A stretch of 64,000 nucleotides of DNA from Paenibacillus sp. G2S3. GTDB taxonomy: Bacteria > Bacillota > Bacilli > Paenibacillales > Paenibacillaceae. The notes beneath the pieces were generated by a model that saw only the letters and a program-made list of their open reading frames with translations, made no database searches and was not told the DNA's origin. The stretch is from the NCBI RefSeq assembly GCF_030123105.1, contig NZ_CP126095.1, positions 6,572,001 to 6,636,000 of the forward strand. The letters are read 5' to 3'. The translations under genes were made by a program, and so were the position numbers. Positions 10,324 through 17,711 of the stretch are shown here, piece after piece. Each line of letters begins with the position of its first letter. Position 1 is the first letter of the stretch.

Positions 10324-11346
10324 ATGAGTGCTTATGATGTACATATCGGCAAGCTAATCAGTGGAAGACGGGAATTGGATGGCAGTGGAGGCTATATCCT
10401 CTGTACCCCCGATAAGAAAATCATTGAGATGGATTCGATCAGCTCGACTGATGGTATCGTTGTGAGTTCCAAAGACATTGAAGACGCCTTATATGAATTT
10501 TGTAAATCTGCTTTGAGGAATTATATCGCGGAGGGGAACAACAAGGATGTCTACACCTTTTCCATTTATACGGATACGTATCACGGAGACTATCTAATAT
10601 ACATCAACAATCTGGAATGTTTGAACCAAAGTGTAGAGGAAGCCCTTGAACATAATCGTCAGCGGTATCTTGAAAGAGAAAACGACCACTATAACCTGGC
10701 CCGCGAGCAGCTTTATCAGGAATTCAAATACGCAGAAGGTGACTACACATTCATGTATGAAGAAATACCTGAGCGGCTTCAGAAGTGGCTGAGTATTCTC
10801 TACTGTATCAACATGGAAGAGCCCCGATATCTCGCAATCGAAGAAGACTATATGTTGGAGAAAACACTTGGAGATTCCCAGCTCTTCCTGATAGCCATTG
10901 ATGTGATTCATCGTTTGGAGCATGACCTTCAGCAGCTCAATCGTACCGATGATTTCATCGCCTACGTCTCTGCGGCGGATGGTGTCGGAGGAGATCTTCT
11001 CACCACCAGTCAGTTGCTTCGAAAATGCGTTAGCGAGGAGCAGCTATATAAGGCGATGCCTAATGTAAACGAGAAGGACGAAGCCTTCCGGATAGCCGTC
11101 AACGCAGTGCAGCAGAAACCGCTTAAAGGGCAAGTTCTTCATTGGGTTACCGTCATCGAGCAGGGTGAATTCGGTGAGGGCAGCCCATACAGCTTCTGGA
11201 AAACCGACTACGAAGCGTACGAGCAAATGATTGGACTCGGCGAACCGGCTGTCTCTTATATCAGAGAGCATTTGAATGGCGAACTGAAACAGGATACGAG
11301 GATGATTCTGAAAATGGTGCTAGAGGATTTGGATAAGGGATTTTAA
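10324..11346 (+). CDS. uncharacterised cytoplasmic protein, possibly DUF4303-like
   Basis: 340-residue acidic, soluble protein with no signal peptide or membrane segment. The first third has a stretch (VYTFSIYTDTYHGDYLIYIN) that resembles DUF4303, a family linked to toxin immunity; the last 60 residues (MIGLGEPAVSYIREHL) look like a single HEAT-like helical pair. I do not recognise it with certainty. It is monocistronic, with a terminator directly after the stop. No toxin gene is visible beside it, which weakens the immunity idea. Confidence 0.75.
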   Translation: MSAYDVHIGKLISGRRELDGSGGYILCTPDKKIIEMDSISSTDGIVVSSKDIEDALYEFCKSALRNYIAEGNNKDVYTFSIYTDTYHGDYLIYINNLECLNQSVEEALEHNRQRYLERENDHYNLAREQLYQEFKYAEGDYTFMYEEIPERLQKWLSILYCINMEEPRYLAIEEDYMLEKTLGDSQLFLIAIDVIHRLEHDLQQLNRTDDFIAYVSAADGVGGDLLTTSQLLRKCVSEEQLYKAMPNVNEKDEAFRIAVNAVQQKPLKGQVLHWVTVIEQGEFGEGSPYSFWKTDYEAYEQMIGLGEPAVSYIREHLNGELKQDTRMILKMVLEDLDKGF

Positions 11347-11351
11347 AATAA

Positions 11352-11388
11352 AAAGGAGCTTCGTCCCTACTCACGAAGCTCTTCTTTA
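11352..11388. terminator. bidirectional terminator, copy 2
   Basis: Stem GAGCTTCGT / ACGAAGCTC and an upstream AAAATAAAAAG tract. It shares the order AAAATAAAAAGGAGCTTCGT, C-CTACTCACGA with the terminator at 9528-9561. Confidence 0.7.
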
Positions 11389-11411
11389 TAATCTATGATA
11401 ATTGTCCCTCT

Positions 11412-11888
11412 TTACCCTTGAATGTCTCTCCTGGCATCTTGCTCGGCGAGAATCTCTTTGTCCTCCGCGTTATCTCTCGTCACTTTCTGAACGCCAACGG
11501 CGCTATATGAGATCAACACAATAACAGCTATATAATACCCCTTTACATTCAATTGAAATGGAGCATTGTACAGACCAATAAAGAACATTACATACCCAAT
11601 AACCAAGCCTGCAAAAGCCATAATTGTGAAAGCCCCTGTATTTCTCATCCTGTGTTTCGGATTTTCTAGCTTAATTTCTTTATCCTCTGAGTTGTCTCTA
11701 ACGACCTTTTGCACAACGATACAGCTAATCGTAATTAACACCATGCAAAGCAAATAATACCCTTTCACGTTCAATTCCCAATCGTCGTTGTACACCCCCA
11801 AACAGAATAGAAAAAGACCTGCAGCCAATGCAAAATACGATACCCCTGTGAAAGCAGCTGTGTTGCGTTTACGATACCTCTGATTCAT
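11412..11888 (-). CDS. YiaA/YiaB-family membrane protein, internally duplicated
   Basis: 158 residues with four membrane segments in two tandem YiaA/B units. The repeat is plain: RNTAAFTGVSYFALAAGL...LNVKGYYLLCMVLITIS...VVRDNSEDKEI against RNTGAFTIMAFAGLVIGY...LNVKGYYIAVIVLISYS...VTRDNAEDKEI. The start follows GAGAGGAATCGTCGG. The family is widespread in inner membranes and its function is not established. It stands alone, convergent with the unknown gene at 10324. Confidence 0.9.
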   Translation of the reverse strand: MNQRYRKRNTAAFTGVSYFALAAGLFLFCLGVYNDDWELNVKGYYLLCMVLITISCIVVQKVVRDNSEDKEIKLENPKHRMRNTGAFTIMAFAGLVIGYVMFFIGLYNAPFQLNVKGYYIAVIVLISYSAVGVQKVTRDNAEDKEILAEQDARRDIQG

Positions 11889-12080
11889 CCGACGATTCCT
11901 CTCCCAATACAGAATTGAATGGTGTTATAACCTTCTTCACTATACCGTGGAACATCGGTAAAATTCTACCATTAATTAGATTGTTTTGGGAAAATACAAA
12001 GAGGACGGTCTCCGTCCCAGGCAATTCAGGACTAAAGCCGCCTCCTATATTTTCTGCAACTTTATGATTTAGAAAAAATG

Positions 12081-12365
12081 CTACTCCCTCTCCTGATCCA
12101 CCAATTGCTGCTGTGCGAGACGAATCATCTCGCGGACCATCGACCCACCAATTTTTCCGCCAATCTGACCCACTGATTCTGTACTCAAATGTCCATTCTC
12201 ACCGTGTTCTAATGGGATACCAAGTTCTTTTGCGACTTCATATTTCACATCATCAGGCCGCTCCGGATCTACATCATAACCCTCGCGCCGCATCACCTCG
12301 GCTTTAAACGTTTGCATTCCGCGATTGACTCCTGGCACGGCATATTTCCTGTTTCTTCTGGACAT
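12081..12365 (-). CDS. alpha/beta-type small acid-soluble spore protein
   Basis: 94 residues. The C-terminal half carries the family signature (LSTESVGQIGGKIGGSMV) and a trailing MIRLAQQQL. Such proteins coat and protect DNA in the forespore and are cut by the GPR protease on germination; the cleavage region is probably near FKAEVMRREGYDV. Start with GGAGGGG eight bases upstream. The N-terminus (MSRRNRKYAVPGVNRGM) is longer and more basic than that of the major SASPs, so it is a minor, SspF-like member. A sigma-G promoter could not be located with confidence. Confidence 0.93.
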   Translation of the reverse strand: MSRRNRKYAVPGVNRGMQTFKAEVMRREGYDVDPERPDDVKYEVAKELGIPLEHGENGHLSTESVGQIGGKIGGSMVREMIRLAQQQLVDQERE

Positions 12366-12517
12366 CCCTTATCCCCTCCTAAAACATGTTGTAAGTAACA
12401 TGCCCGGAAATCGGAACCTCCACCCCTGTTGATTTGCTCCGATTATTTCCAAGAGGGCGCTGAAAGGCCAACTGTTGTCAGGGTGCTTGCCCTCTGTTTC
12501 TTATACATAAATTTTGC

Positions 12518-12548
12518 TTGAAGGTGACGTTACGTCACCTGCTATACT
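12518..12548 (+). promoter_or_regulatory. MerR-type promoter with 19-bp spacer and perfect operator
   Basis: TTGAAG (12518-12523) and TATACT (12543-12548) are 19 bases apart, the overlong spacing typical of MerR activators. The spacer region holds the perfect 9-1-9 inverted repeat AGGTGACGT T ACGTCACCT (12522-12540). The start codon of the MerR fusion is 46 bases downstream, so the regulator controls its own operon. Confidence 0.85.
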
Positions 12549-12594
12549 AACTGAGAACAACATGCTGGAGCAATCGATTGGATGTGAGGAAAGG

Positions 12595-13779
12595 ATGTAC
12601 AAAGAGAACTATTTAACGACAGGGCAGCTTGCAAAGCGTACAGGAATAACGGTCAGGACATTGCGATATTACGATCAGATTGGGCTTCTAATTCCAGAAA
12701 ATCATCATGCGGGATCGATAAGATCTTATAACATGAAAGACCTAGAAAAATTGCAGCAAATTCAAACGTTGAAATACTTAGGGCTATCACTTCAAGAAAT
12801 AAAAGACATCTTAGATGCAGAGTCGCTATCCATAGGGGAGATCAGACATTCATTACAAGCACAGCTCGATGTTCTACAGAGAAAAATCACTCATACGGAG
12901 CATGTAGTTCATGCAATACGAGATGCTATGCAAATGTCGGTCAATCGGTCTGATTGGAACCACTTAGCAAATGTTATTCAAACCTTACAGAGTAAGCAAG
13001 ATTGGGGGGAACAGTATCGGACGGCAAGCCGCTTGCAAACGCGGATACATCTTTATGACAAGTTCAGTACAAATCCGCAAGGCTGGCATAATTGGGTGTT
13101 TGAACAACTGGAGGTGCACCCTGGAGCCCACATTCTAGAGTTAGGTGGCGGCGATGGGACCTTTTGGATAAGAAACGCCGAACGAATTCCAAGCAGCTGG
13201 CGCATCACACTTACTGATATTTCGAGCGGGATGGTAGAAGAAGCACGTTGCCGCTTAGGAAGTAAAAGTTCACAGTTTAAGCTCTTATCTGTTGACGCGC
13301 AACAAATCCCCTTCCATGATGAGCATTTCGATGTGGTTATCGCTAACAACATGCTGTATCACGTGCCGGATATCCCTAGAGCGATCCACGAGATACACCG
13401 CGTCCTAAAGCGAGGGGGTATAATATGCACCTCTACAATGAGCACTCAACACCTACAAGAGATTGAGCACTTGGCGGTCTCGTTCGACCCCGACCTTCAT
13501 GTATTGGATCAAGCTATTAAACGATTTAATCTGGGTAACGGAGGAGACCTGCTATCTTCTTGCTTCTCCGATCTTCGGTTACTACGTTACGACGACCGTC
13601 TGTTAGTCGACGAAGCTGAACCCCTGATTGAATATATGATATCGACCCCGATGAACGCAAAAGAGCGACTTGTCGGTGCGGCTATAGACGAATTTCTAAA
13701 ACACGTCAATCGGCTTCTACAGGAGAATGGAGCTCTCGAAATGACTAAAGAAAATGGGGTTTTCCTAGGGAGGAAATGA
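12595..13779 (+). CDS. MerR regulator fused to a SAM-dependent methyltransferase
   Basis: 394 residues from the ATG at 12595, which has GAGGAAAGG upstream; the frame is open further but that part contains the promoter. Residues about 6-75 form a MerR helix-turn-helix (YLTTGQLAKRTGITVRTLRYYD), about 75-125 the dimer helix, and about 150-300 a class I methyltransferase with motif I (HILELGGGDGTFW), an acidic TDIS after strand 2 and ANNMLYHVPD after strand 4. The methyltransferase replaces the usual ligand domain, so SAM or a methyl acceptor could be the signal. The next gene starts two bases after its stop. Confidence 0.93.
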   Translation: MYKENYLTTGQLAKRTGITVRTLRYYDQIGLLIPENHHAGSIRSYNMKDLEKLQQIQTLKYLGLSLQEIKDILDAESLSIGEIRHSLQAQLDVLQRKITHTEHVVHAIRDAMQMSVNRSDWNHLANVIQTLQSKQDWGEQYRTASRLQTRIHLYDKFSTNPQGWHNWVFEQLEVHPGAHILELGGGDGTFWIRNAERIPSSWRITLTDISSGMVEEARCRLGSKSSQFKLLSVDAQQIPFHDEHFDVVIANNMLYHVPDIPRAIHEIHRVLKRGGIICTSTMSTQHLQEIEHLAVSFDPDLHVLDQAIKRFNLGNGGDLLSSCFSDLRLLRYDDRLLVDEAEPLIEYMISTPMNAKERLVGAAIDEFLKHVNRLLQENGALEMTKENGVFLGRK

Positions 13780-13780
13780 G

Positions 13781-14743
13781 ATGAAGGCACAGCATTACAA
13801 CCCAAGAGTACGGATCGTAAAAGAGGAACTTCTATCAGATAACTGGTACACCTTAAAGAAGATCACATTCAAGTATGAAAAAGAAAATGGACAATGGGAG
13901 ACACAATCCCGTGAAGTGTATGATCGAGGCAACGGAGCGACCATTCTACTCTATAATCGACACAAACAAACCATCGTACTTACGAGACAATTCCGAATGC
14001 CTACTTATCTAAACGGCAATGTGACTGGAATGCTTATCGAAACCTGCGCGGGGCTACTCGATAAAGAAACACCAGAAGAAAGTATTCTGAGGGAAACGGA
14101 GGAAGAGACGGGGTACCGTATCGATCGAGTGCAGAAAGTTGGCGAGGTCTATATGTCACCAGGATCTGTTACCGAAACCCTGCACTTCTTTGTAGCTGAG
14201 TATAGTGATGTCATGACAAAAGGTCCGGGTGGGGGACTTGAGGAGGAACAGGAAAATATTGAAGTAGTGGAACTTCCGTTTGCTCAAGCGCTTGACATGG
14301 TCCAAAGCGGCGAGATTCGTGATGCTAAGACGGTAATGCTGCTCCAATACGCTCAGATCCAAGGTCTCTTGAAGGTAAAATCGAAACCGCTGCACATCCT
14401 CATCGCTGGCCCATATCGTTCTGGAACCAATGATGATCCAATATTAATCGAGGAAAATGTCAAATACATGAATAAAATTGCTCTTCAAGTTTACGAGGCT
14501 GGGCATATGCCTGTGCTGGGGGAGTGGTATGCTTTGCCTCTTATTGCTACAGCCGGTTCCACTAATCTAGGAGACGACGTTTTCAACCGAATTTTCCATC
14601 CATCTTCCATTCGCCTGCTTAATTACTGTGATGCCGTGCTTCGAGTTGGAGGATCATCTCAGGGTGCCGATGAAATGGTACAGGTTGCGCAAGAGAAAGG
14701 ATTGTTGATTTACGAACGGCTGGATGAACTTCCGTTAATTTGA
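13781..14743 (+). CDS. NudK-like Nudix hydrolase fused to a DUF4406-like domain
   Basis: 320 residues. The first 200 closely follow GDP-mannose pyrophosphatase NudK: GNVTGMLIETCAGLLD, the Nudix helix LRETEEETGY, EVYMSPGSVTETLHFFVAEY and GEIRDAKTVMLL. The Nudix box is one residue short before the first Glu, as in NudK. Residues about 205-320 (LHILIAGPYRSG, then EWYALPLIA and CDAVLRVGGSSQGADEM) look like DUF4406, related to nucleoside deoxyribosyltransferases. Translationally coupled to the MerR-methyltransferase. The substrate is presumably a nucleotide sugar or other nucleoside diphosphate derivative. Confidence 0.9.
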   Translation: MKAQHYNPRVRIVKEELLSDNWYTLKKITFKYEKENGQWETQSREVYDRGNGATILLYNRHKQTIVLTRQFRMPTYLNGNVTGMLIETCAGLLDKETPEESILRETEEETGYRIDRVQKVGEVYMSPGSVTETLHFFVAEYSDVMTKGPGGGLEEEQENIEVVELPFAQALDMVQSGEIRDAKTVMLLQYAQIQGLLKVKSKPLHILIAGPYRSGTNDDPILIEENVKYMNKIALQVYEAGHMPVLGEWYALPLIATAGSTNLGDDVFNRIFHPSSIRLLNYCDAVLRVGGSSQGADEMVQVAQEKGLLIYERLDELPLI

Positions 14744-14791
14744 TAACAAGCCTTTGTTCCTGTCTGATGATGCACTTCTTGATTTAAGTCA

Positions 14792-15382
14792 ATGCCCGCC
14801 ATACTACTCCTAATTACAATGAAAATAAAAAGTCCTTTAGGAGGCTATATTAAGGCTATCTCAGAAAAAGACCTATCGAATCAGCGAAAATCCGCTCTAA
14901 CTGCTGGAATCTCTCTTATCATCATGACCCTTGCCTCATTTTTTTCGTATGGCTTTGTCCATGGGAATCTTGTAGTGCAGGGCGATGCCAGCGCCACATT
15001 CAACAATATCGTATCATCAAACAATCTTTTCAAAGGTGAAATCTTGGGTTGGATCATCATTATGATTACTGACATCCTGGTCGCCTGGGCGTTTTATGTG
15101 TTTCTAGAACCGATTAACCAAAAGCTATCATTACTCGGCGCCTGGCTTCGTCTAACCTATTCCGATATATTGGGAGTCTCTATACTTAACTTGATAGTTG
15201 TGCTGCTGCTCACGGGAAATACAATCGACTTTCCCTCATTAAAAATCGAACAGACTCAAGCATTTATAATGTTATTTCTGGATGCATTTCAATTGATCTG
15301 GTCTATGGGGTTGGTCGTTTTTGGCGGGCATCTGGTAATTGTGAGTTATAGAACTAGGTTTTGGGATATGGCTACTGCTTAG
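14792..15382 (+). CDS. DUF4386-like membrane protein, probably shortened
   Basis: 196 residues with about five membrane segments, resembling DUF4386 proteins (RKSALTAGISLIIMTLASFF; LEPINQKLSLLGAWLRLTYSD; WSMGLVVFGGHLVIVSY). Family members I know are longer; the last two membrane segments after GHLVIVSY appear to be missing. The start is also poor: neither ATG 14792 nor ATG 14819 has a good ribosome site. With the broken Crp/Fnr gene next door this may be a decaying gene. Function unknown. Confidence 0.65.
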   Translation: MPAILLLITMKIKSPLGGYIKAISEKDLSNQRKSALTAGISLIIMTLASFFSYGFVHGNLVVQGDASATFNNIVSSNNLFKGEILGWIIIMITDILVAWAFYVFLEPINQKLSLLGAWLRLTYSDILGVSILNLIVVLLLTGNTIDFPSLKIEQTQAFIMLFLDAFQLIWSMGLVVFGGHLVIVSYRTRFWDMATA

Positions 15383-15418
15383 AGGAGGAAAACTCCCCAA
15401 AAATGTATGACTTTCTTT

Positions 15419-15933
15419 TTAGTTACCACTGGAATGAACCCGCTTCTTAATTCTGCTCAACGACTCTGGTGTCATCCCCAGATAGCTGGCCAATTGATGC
15501 TGAGGTACGCGAGTGAGTAAGTAAGTGAGGTCTTTTTTTGCAACAAGGCTTTATAACGTTCTTCAGGATTGGAAGCGATAAATGAAGTTAATTCGTCCTG
15601 CACCTCACCTAAGTTCTCCTCTACCATTTTGCGGATCATCGTTTCCAATTGCGAGTGTTTGTGAAGCATATCTTGTTCCGCATTAAGTTCACCAACCACC
15701 AATGTACTATCTTCTAGACAGGTTAAGGTGTATGCAGAGGGCTTATTTTCTTGATGCCGATTAAAAATCGAAGCCGCTTGCTCTTCCGTGTAGAAATTAG
15801 ATGTGACTTCTTTGCCCGATTCATCTATCGAGTACTGCCTAACACAACCTTTTAACACGAAAAAACATTTTGTGGGAACAATCTCTCTCCAATCTTCCGA
15901 AGCTAATGGCCCGCTTATGATGCGCTTGAAGCT
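15419..15933 (-). pseudogene. broken Crp/Fnr-family regulator
   Basis: A 128-codon frame (15472-15858) covers the middle of a Crp/Fnr protein (FFVLKGCVRQYSIDESGKEV to SNPEERYKALLQK). At a run of seven A on the minus strand (about 15530) the frame is lost; one more A restores the expected C-terminus with the DNA-binding helix (VPQHQLASYLGMTPESLSRI, stop at 15419). Upstream, SFKRIISGPLASEDWREIV is in frame but joins FFVLKG with about 25 residues missing and has no start codon. At least two lesions make a sequencing error an insufficient explanation. Confidence 0.8.
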
Positions 15934-16066
15934 ATTTAGGCTCCCGTGAGGGAGTCTCTTTCCTAATTATACTAGCTCATACTAAAACAAATCCAACCTC
16001 TCAACTCTTTATACGCCGCTCGGCTGTGTCCGCTAGCACCTTCATATACGATCCATCTCAAAAAAC

Positions 16067-16107
16067 AGGGAGGCCCAACAGCCATTTCATGACTGTTGGG
16101 CCTCCCT
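16067..16107 (-). terminator. terminator of the sugar ABC operon
   Basis: Fifteen-base perfect stem AGGGAGGCCCAACAG / CTGTTGGGCCTCCCT, followed on the minus strand by a T run; just after the binding-protein gene. Confidence 0.92.
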
Positions 16108-16118
16108 TATCGTGTATA

Positions 16119-17711
16119 TTACTTGTTCGCTAAGAAAGCATCGATTTGCACTTGCAGCTCGGCTTGGATCTTATCAATGCCAGCTGATTTCAGCTGTTTG
16201 TTCAAATCTGCAAGGCCTTTGTCGATATCTTTAATTACGCCGTACTCAAGCGGAATGGCATAGCGGAGCATTACATTGCCCACATTGGCAATTTCCGTCT
16301 TCACTTTGCTATTGTCGAATACAAAGGTTTCAAGGGCATAGTGGTAGACGTTAGCTTCCCAGCCCTTAGCCAGATCGTTAGCTTCTTGAGGGAATGCTTC
16401 ATTGTCAAGGTTGAGTGGCGAGTTGAAGTTCCAATTAGAGAAGCCGGTAAAGTTCGGATTTTTGTCGAGTGCTTTATATTTGGTGTCGCCAACCGGTTCA
16501 TAGTGCACGCCACTAATTCCGTACATCATCAGGTCGTGCAGTTCTTTATCGTTTTGCATCAGATCGATCAGCATCAAGGAACGTTCTACATTTTTGGAAG
16601 TCGCATGAATCGACGTACCGTTTTGTGTAGAAATCGCCACTGATTTTTTCTTCCCTTGGTTAATATCAGCCAACGCAACTTCATAAGGAGAATTTTCTTG
16701 GCGCATCAAGGCCATGAGTGCTCCAAGTGTTCCGTTATTATGCGTAATTGAAGCGGTTTTGCCTGCTTTAAAATCCGCTTGATGATCATTTTTACTGTTC
16801 AGAACGTTTTTCGACCAAGCATTGTTATCAGCGAGATCTTTGTAATACACGAGTAGATCTTTGAACTCTTGCGTTTCATAGACGTTAAAGACTTTACCTG
16901 TTTCATCGGTCAATTTGAAGGCAAACGGAAGATCTAGGTCAAACATATTCCATTCGTTTTGCTGCTTCAATAATACACGGTCCAAGTTATGATACTTCCA
17001 GTCCCCCGTTTCCGGAGTGAACGGTGTAATTCCTTTTTCCTTTTCTGCTATCGTCTTCAAATAAGTAGCATATGCTTCCGGGCTGTTGATTTCGGGAAGA
17101 TTGTATTTCTTACGTAAATCTTCACGATAGAGAATCAGCTTTTCAACAGATTCCCCTCTGTTTTGTGGAACCATGTACAGTTTGCCGTTTACTTTTGCCT
17201 GATCCCAGCTCACATCTGACATAGCTTCCTTAGTTTTTGGCATATATTTGGTAATTAGCTCATCGGTTAATTCTAGAAATCCGCCTTTCAGCGCCTGATC
17301 ATTATAACCGGCCCAGTTTGCTGAATAGATGAGGTCAAAATCTTCATTTGCCGCTAGCTTCAGTGGATATTTTTGAGCCCAGTCAGACCAGTCCAAGAAC
17401 TCGCCCTCAAGGGTCGCATTAATTTTTTCTTTCAGTTTCTTGTTAATTTCAGCAAAAACACTATCATAGTCTACGGGTTTAGGCCCTACAAAAATCATTT
17501 TTAGCTTTACTTCTTTAGAGGTGTCTATGGTATCTGAAGCTTCGGCTGCATTCGTTGCACTCGCTGTTTCTGTAGGCTCACTTGTTACCTCAGAGGCATT
17601 ATTTGTAGCCTTAGCGGGCGCATTGGCCTTGTTGTTGCCGCCACATGCGCTCAAAATCATTACGAAGGTTAAAACGAGTGCGAGCATAATGAATCTATTT
17701 TTTCTCAGCAT
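16119..17711 (-). CDS. extracellular sugar-binding lipoprotein (LplA/YtcQ type)
   Basis: 530-residue solute-binding protein of a CUT1 ABC importer. Signal peptide with lipobox LSAC, lipidated Cys at residue 23, then a Gly/Asn/Ala/Thr-rich linker to about 60 and a long periplasmic-binding fold. Large size (over 500 residues) and association with LplB/LplC-type permeases place it with LplA/YtcQ proteins that bind oligosaccharides. Last gene of the operon 19606-16119, with a strong terminator after it. The ligand is not visible from the sequence. Confidence 0.93.
   Translation of the reverse strand: MLRKNRFIMLALVLTFVMILSACGGNNKANAPAKATNNASEVTSEPTETASATNAAEASDTIDTSKEVKLKMIFVGPKPVDYDSVFAEINKKLKEKINATLEGEFLDWSDWAQKYPLKLAANEDFDLIYSANWAGYNDQALKGGFLELTDELITKYMPKTKEAMSDVSWDQAKVNGKLYMVPQNRGESVEKLILYREDLRKKYNLPEINSPEAYATYLKTIAEKEKGITPFTPETGDWKYHNLDRVLLKQQNEWNMFDLDLPFAFKLTDETGKVFNVYETQEFKDLLVYYKDLADNNAWSKNVLNSKNDHQADFKAGKTASITHNNGTLGALMALMRQENSPYEVALADINQGKKKSVAISTQNGTSIHATSKNVERSLMLIDLMQNDKELHDLMMYGISGVHYEPVGDTKYKALDKNPNFTGFSNWNFNSPLNLDNEAFPQEANDLAKGWEANVYHYALETFVFDNSKVKTEIANVGNVMLRYAIPLEYGVIKDIDKGLADLNKQLKSAGIDKIQAELQVQIDAFLANK

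Follow-up and report, generated by a model that had tools for sequence, protein, structure and literature searches.

MerR-family regulators sense metals and drugs by means of dedicated pockets, and in those with ligand domains the ligand site is formed by the part that lies C-terminal of the coil. In activators with large ligand domains such as BmrR, EcmrR and TipA, this C-terminal part is GyrI-like, of the TipAS type or metal-binding. Here, we describe a two-gene operon (positions 12518–14743) in a 64,000-nucleotide stretch of the genome of Paenibacillus sp. G2S3 (contig NZ_CP126095.1, referred to as a whole as the window), in which the first gene encodes a MerR-methyltransferase fusion and the second a fusion of a NudK-type Nudix domain with a DUF4406-like domain. 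The regulator resembles BmrR, EcmrR and TipA in its MerR winged helix and in its promoter, which has a 19-bp spacer with a dyad inside, but differs from them in that its C-terminal half is a complete class I S-adenosylmethionine (SAM) methyltransferase fold. It is also like the enzyme-fused transcription factors BirA, NadR and PutA, in which a DNA-binding domain is joined to an intact enzyme fold, but differs from these in having a MerR-type promoter and a methyltransferase, a putative enzyme known from its sequence. We propose, with a probability of about 0.5, that the operon is a one-component local switch that would turn on a nucleotide-sugar enzyme once the methyltransferase half has bound a small molecule.

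The two genes are kept together across the order. When an even draw of 296 genomes, the window's own included, was searched for the Nudix fusion (E ≤ 1e-40), the fusion or a large part of it was found in 39 genomes from 12 genera, and in 38 of these 39 a MerR-methyltransferase gene, whole or broken, lay on the same strand within 1 kb. The initial annotation of the window had named a lack of conservation of the pair as grounds for giving up its reading, and the pair proved to be conserved. The sole exception, genome G246, matched in the Nudix half only. Several copies are decayed: G310 has mere remnants of both genes, the regulator gene is interrupted in G235 and G237, and the operon is broken at loci L143 and L149–L152. 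At L151 and L152, large parts of both genes are gone and the promoter site is still present. Flanking genes differ across most loci, some being shared by close relatives. In the window, gene 2 starts 1 nt past the stop of gene 1, in line with the translational coupling proposed initially; such close spacing is not general, however, as the gap is 5 nt or less in only 18 of the 33 loci with a gap value, and close spacing was dropped as a conserved trait.

Ahead of gene 1 stands a MerR-type promoter (12518–12548, + strand), read from the sequence as a −35 element TTGAAG (12518–12523), a 19-bp spacer and a −10 element TATACT (12543–12548). A repeat search of the window identified the operator, a perfect 9-1-9 inverted repeat, AGGTGACGT-T-ACGTCACCT (12522–12540, no strand), which overlaps the promoter spacer. 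This is the arrangement typical of the MerR family, a dyad inside a spacer of 19–20 bp, and both promoter and repeat are present base for base as first described. Allowing up to 3 mismatches, the operator repeat has one match in the 64-kb window and none in 100 shuffles, and a strict search with the promoter/operator pattern returned a single site in the window's whole genome (G000). A sigma-70 scan with spacers of 16–18 nt gave 4 sites against 6.5 expected, none of them at the MerR promoter, and an Rfam scan of 11000–16500 found no family at gathering score.

To see how the site behaves elsewhere, 60 loci were fetched, 48 of which (L114–L161) contain the MerR-methyltransferase gene and/or the Nudix gene; near relatives are included among them and the counts are not independent. 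The gene strand was searched for TTGNNN and TANNNT separated by a spacer of 14–22, together with a core like GTGACGTNACGTCAC in which as many as 3 mismatches were allowed. This revealed a site in 45 of the 48 loci, each at a spacer of 19 (four match again at 16 or 21), against one site in 11.2 Mb of letter-shuffled copies. A strict pattern search of 40 whole genomes detected 29 sites in 27 genomes, 27 of them at these loci, and found the reversed pattern in none of the 40. Since the strict sites lie mostly at these loci, with one site in the window's genome, the regulon looks local. In all six loci where the two genes are more than 60 nt apart (L131, L132, L140, L141, L143 and L149), the operator is located between them, ahead of the Nudix gene, and no such site was found before the regulator. 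At L135, where the gene order is reversed, the operator is again ahead of the Nudix gene. As the operator stays before the Nudix gene when the genes separate or reorder, control of this gene appears to be the conserved feature; judged from these layouts, autoregulation is not the conserved part and would simply come with the operon arrangement. The initial description of a self-regulated operon thus holds for the window and for most loci, but not for these seven, where the operator stands ahead of the Nudix gene instead of the regulator.

Gene 1 (12595–13779, + strand) encodes a protein of 394 amino acids (aa), whose domain matches are accompanied by a structure model with a predicted local distance difference test (pLDDT) score of 80.8. 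Its N-terminal MerR winged-helix DNA-binding domain (aa 1–75, 12595–12819, + strand) matches MerR_1 (PF13411) at aa 8–75 with 70.4 bits (cutoff 21.6) and also PF00376 with 46.9 bits (cutoff 28.2), and the best solved-structure match of this part is TipA. The helical linker that follows (aa 76–140, 12820–13014, + strand), a low-confidence part of the model, is by analogy with the MerR family a probable dimerisation coil. The remainder (aa 140–394, 13012–13776, + strand) is the complete methyltransferase half, which matches Methyltransf_11 at aa 181–278 with 78 bits (cutoff 21.2) and has both the class I fold and the SAM motifs, catalysis being putative. Its best structural matches are GtmA, OxaG, TmtA and RoqN, which we take to be small-molecule methyltransferases. 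In an alignment of 51 chosen homologues, G184, G186 and D208 are kept in 51/51 and D234 in 50/51; going by the class I motifs, these are presumably the SAM-binding positions. The intact-looking methyltransferase of the initial annotation therefore stands, and the loss of SAM-binding residues in homologues, named there as evidence against it, was not found. Residue 185 (13147–13149), within the SAM motif, is G in the window protein and C in 50 of the 51 aligned proteins. Among named close relatives, the identity is 85% in P. polymyxa and 87% in P. terrae, and a scan of genome contigs gave one locus, in P. terrae. Free-standing methyltransferases related to approximately aa 132–394 of the fusion occur at L162–L173. 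A defence system was considered and rejected: PADLOC matched only mads_1 and mads_2 (to the MerR and methyltransferase parts) plus a weak Nudix match, which we read as shared domains.

Gene 2 (13781–14743, + strand) encodes a protein of 320 aa, recognised by profile matches and with a structure model at a pLDDT of 88.4, and both products are two-domain fusions, as first described, with the domain order seen in each. The Nudix domain (aa 9–197, 13805–14371, + strand) matches the NudK equivalog of NCBIfam (NF011585) with 251.3 bits (cutoff 234). Its Nudix box (aa 91–112, 14051–14116, + strand), G-X4-E-X7-R-E-X2-E-E-X-G-Y, is one residue shorter than the canonical box, and E105, E108 and E109 are kept in 50/50 chosen homologues. 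The box of YffH is given as GX4DX7KEX2EEXGU and is shortened too (PMC5389931), and gene 2 has this shortened type of box together with its glutamates. The window protein nevertheless differs from the E. coli GDP-mannose pyrophosphatase NudK/YffH in its additional C-terminal domain and in an N at residue 159, which aligns with E. coli D152 (mutated in 3o6z); because Asp152 is not matched, we use the name NudK-type rather than NudK.

The C-terminal domain of gene 2 (aa 203–318, 14387–14734, + strand) has no Pfam name above cutoff: DUF4406 (PF14359) gave no match, and the best match in Pfam is DUF7768 (E 0.033, below cutoff). Among free-standing homologues of this domain, two of four reach 15.3 and 13.8 bits against DUF4406, short of its cutoff of 22, and the free-standing homologue is called 'DUF4406 domain-containing protein' in six annotated plasmid records and 'NUDIX hydrolase' in three. 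The name DUF4406, used initially, thus agrees with record annotations and sub-cutoff matches of homologues, but not with a Pfam match in the window domain itself, and is kept here as DUF4406-like. PF27456 does not appear to be a name for this domain, judging by two homologues, P0102 and P0105, which are without the first 83 and 64 residues respectively, keep the C-terminal domain and have no PF27456 label. As homologues short of the N-terminus lose the label in this way, it appears to mark the N-terminal region ahead of the Nudix box on NudK-type homologues; it is present on most gene 2 homologues and on none of 120 listed free-standing proteins. For the deoxyribosyltransferase-like nature proposed initially, a fold search with gene 2 listed a viral N-deoxyribosyltransferase (E 3.9e-5) and a DUF7768 protein (E 1.7e-4) amid mostly Nudix matches, without showing the matched range, and the PDB fold lists for the whole protein are taken up by the Nudix half. 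When the C-terminal domain was used in a sequence-profile search of solved structures, only two unrelated matches were returned (E 0.62 and 0.74). Position 298, which we take to be the catalytic glutamate of the nucleoside 2-deoxyribosyltransferase superfamily, is E in 34/50 chosen homologues and in one of five free-standing homologues. The proposal therefore retains some weak fold support, but its presumed catalytic glutamate varies. An entry for the fungus Hortaea werneckii (P0002) is 87% identical to the gene 2 protein and probably stems from bacterial contamination of that assembly.

Regulators of the same type are also found with other partners. In a sister clade of six loci (L154–L159), whose regulators are 36–38% identical to that of the window, no Nudix gene lies within the fetched stretch, and a gene for a WecB-type UDP-N-acetylglucosamine (UDP-GlcNAc) 2-epimerase stands directly upstream of the regulator in 6/6 loci, with gaps of 18–102 nt. 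The operator in this clade stands before the WecB gene (at L158 with 4 mismatches), and the L155 protein matches the WecB equivalog with 454 bits (cutoff 210). In all six genomes, the regulator-linked WecB is a second copy, the other WecB being 48–52% identical to the L155 query, while three of four comparison genomes have one WecB and the fourth, G216, has two, the second lying outside its fetched loci. At L134, a GalE gene (442 bits, cutoff 262) lies between the operator and the regulator, which is followed by the Nudix fusion. Sixty-three proteins were placed in a tree, built by a quick method with Shimodaira–Hasegawa approximate likelihood ratio test (SH-aLRT) support only, in which the Nudix-partnered regulators (36 rows, including partnerless L125) and the WecB-partnered ones (6 rows) form clades with a support of 100. 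The initial view of the Nudix protein as the only partner applies to most of the window's clade, but has to be widened to WecB in the sister clade and to GalE-like proteins at L134 and L160. Judged by these matches, the identified partners in these clades are nucleotide-sugar enzymes.

Outside Bacillota, NudK and DUF4406-like genes stand beside a different regulator. We chose 14 records, several of which share a genus, from 113 plasmid records; in 13 of the 14, a DeoR-type gene adjoins NudK and/or DUF4406-like genes, called by annotation in nine records and by tblastn in four (L186, L187, L191 and L192). Gemmatirosa is the record without a DeoR-type gene at these genes. In the Phyllobacterium and Streptantibioticus records, DeoR has a DUF4406-like gene at its side and no Nudix match, and in the Caballeronia record it is found with a DUF4406-like gene and a Nudix fragment. 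In Sinorhizobium (L192), the alignment with the window protein runs unbroken to residue 278, and free-standing DUF4406-like queries found nothing. The DeoR-type loci (Hymenobacter, Streptomyces, Pantoea and others) are like those of Paenibacillaceae in that homologous parts adjoin a regulator gene, but they have two separate genes, whereas in Paenibacillaceae the parts are fused and lie beside the MerR-methyltransferase. We read this as an exchange of regulators.

A Niallia plasmid (L177) carries one pair whose second gene is interrupted; we rejected it as an unfused intermediate, as the second open reading frame is in another frame and starts with the tail of the Nudix domain, and it is more likely an interrupted fusion. 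The patchy distribution and the presence of a pair on this plasmid would suit an accessory function. When the phylum was searched with homologue P0227 of Clostridium fermenticellae, 3 of 348 genomes gave a match: one was that of the window, and in the other two the match was confined, or largely confined, to the methyltransferase part. A Lactobacillus johnsonii plasmid (NZ_CP040855.1, L182) carries a MerR-methyltransferase that is 37% identical, at which the operator was not found and no Nudix neighbour is annotated.

In the local switch that we propose, the MerR half would bind the 9-1-9 repeat within the over-long 19-bp spacer, a site and spacing that are both in place, and would reshape the promoter as other MerR regulators do to turn transcription on; activation of promoters with 19–20 bp spacers is described for the MerR family (PMC8113463). 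The trigger would be a small molecule in the substrate pocket of the methyltransferase half, or SAM or S-adenosylhomocysteine (SAH) in its cofactor pocket. As conserved output, the Nudix-DUF4406-like protein would be produced, whose Nudix domain probably splits a compound linked to a nucleoside diphosphate (NDP), such as a GDP-mannose-like or other NDP-sugar, to yield nucleotide plus sugar phosphate, and whose C-terminal domain may act on or bind one of these products. Since regulators of this type are also partnered by a second UDP-GlcNAc 2-epimerase and by GalE-like epimerases, the signal most likely concerns nucleotide-sugar metabolism, be it an intracellular imbalance or a nucleotide-sugar mimic.

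Several observations weigh against this reading. No site was found at 3 mismatches in three of the 48 loci: L153 has the Nudix gene only, L158 has a site of the same layout at 4 mismatches, and L125 (G058:C1:6026150-6037283) is a second, nearly identical copy of the MerR-methyltransferase gene without a Nudix partner, in which the operator/promoter is shortened and the 19-bp geometry thereby lost. The strict pattern has no exact match in 13 of the 40 genomes, and two of its 29 sites adjoin other MerR genes, so that the operator motif is not confined to regulators of this type. The neighbours of these two sites (L194 and L212) look from their sequence like a flavohaemoglobin in one case and a CPBP-type membrane protease in the other. 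Among the partners, the WecB match of L159 covers residues 138–392 only, and GalE-like proteins occur at just two loci, of which the one at L160, 9 nt downstream, scores 180 bits against a cutoff of 262. Residue 159 of the Nudix protein is N in 24, D in 15 and another residue in 11 of the 50 chosen homologues, and, as the position aligned with E. coli D152 varies, GDP-mannose may not be the substrate. Finally, rather than sensing, the methyltransferase half may function as an enzyme.

Of the alternatives, a metabolic sensor is possible, if doubtful: the operon would trim the nucleotide-sugar or nucleotide pool, with the methyltransferase half reporting SAM/SAH or a nucleotide-sugar metabolite. 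The identified partners, as nucleotide-sugar enzymes, are consistent with this, as is the DeoR/GlpR-type regulator in other phyla (13/14 records), a family whose ligands are mostly sugar phosphates; the patchiness (39/296) and the several broken copies would, however, be unusual for core metabolism. The boldest candidate, inducible self-protection against a UDP-GlcNAc-like nucleoside antibiotic of the tunicamycin type, seems rather unlikely, as does its detailed form, in which the methyltransferase half would serve both to recognise and to methylate the drug (or its target), with the operon supplying more Nudix hydrolase or, in the sister clade, the spare epimerase. It would fit the second, diverged WecB copy in 6/6 sister-clade genomes, an operon that is patchy, broken in several loci and carried on one plasmid (where it is interrupted too), and the structural matches to GtmA, OxaG, TmtA and RoqN. 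It would also fit reports that tunM, a putative SAM methyltransferase gene, alone gave S. coelicolor complete tunicamycin immunity (PMC6105854) and that S. aureus MnaA is bound and inhibited by tunicamycin (PMC4856313). Likened by description and not by sequence, TunM is a putative SAM methyltransferase tied to a nucleotide-sugar-like antibiotic; unlike the window regulator, it is described in the portion of that report drawn on here without mention of a DNA-binding part. Against self-protection, tunicamycin is reported to leave P. alvei MnaA uninhibited (PMC11464976), and a spare epimerase copy would then not be needed against this drug; moreover, the flanks, which were clustered and not annotated, revealed no constantly neighbouring exporter, and G216 too has a second WecB, away from its fetched loci. 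The support that the epimerase partners lend to the nucleoside-antibiotic idea of the initial annotation is thus circumstantial.

It is likewise rather improbable that the methyltransferase is an output enzyme fused to its own regulator, sensing nothing while the MerR part responds via the linker. Free-standing methyltransferases of the same family exist, and two of the 12 fetched loci (L163 and L166) have a MarR-type gene, read from the sequence, directly upstream, so that a layout of regulator plus enzyme occurs without fusion; in the MerR proteins mentioned above, however, the part C-terminal of the coil holds the ligand site, and here this part is the methyltransferase. Less likely again is an enzyme-as-sensor resistance switch of Paenibacillaceae, with relatives in Clostridium, in which a nucleotide-sugar-like antibiotic would be recognised and methylated in the active site, gating DNA binding, and the bound or methylated state would turn on a counter-enzyme, whether the Nudix-DUF4406-like protein, a spare UDP-GlcNAc 2-epimerase or a GalE-like protein. 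That the genes are chance neighbours with a generic MerR promoter is very improbable since, although the operator pattern is also found beside two other MerR genes, co-occurrence in 38/39 genomes of 12 genera with mostly differing flanks, and an operator that follows the Nudix gene, speak against it.

In the window, the operon lies between a divergent gene for an alpha/beta-type small acid-soluble spore protein upstream (12081–12365, − strand) and a gene for a DUF4386 membrane protein downstream on the same strand as the operon (14792–15382), the cluster of the latter being found again in only 3 of the 60 fetched loci.

Literature searches, by titles and abstract starts, returned no paper on a MerR-methyltransferase fusion or a NudK-DUF4406 pair, and nothing relevant on MerR with UDP-GlcNAc 2-epimerase or on DeoR with Nudix plus deoxyribosyltransferase. 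The parts are of known kinds; their combination and the exchange of partners are new. The sensing position of this MerR regulator is occupied by an entire methyltransferase fold whose presumed SAM site is conserved, and as the regulon looks small, with one site in the genome, a single reporter and a single protein should suffice to test the switch. Should a nucleoside antibiotic prove to be the ligand, the switch would represent a new class of inducible resistance; with a metabolite as ligand, the protein would be a regulator that reads SAM or an NDP-sugar. A widespread and uncharacterised gene pair, NudK-type plus DUF4406-like, which elsewhere stands beside DeoR, also gains a regulatory context.

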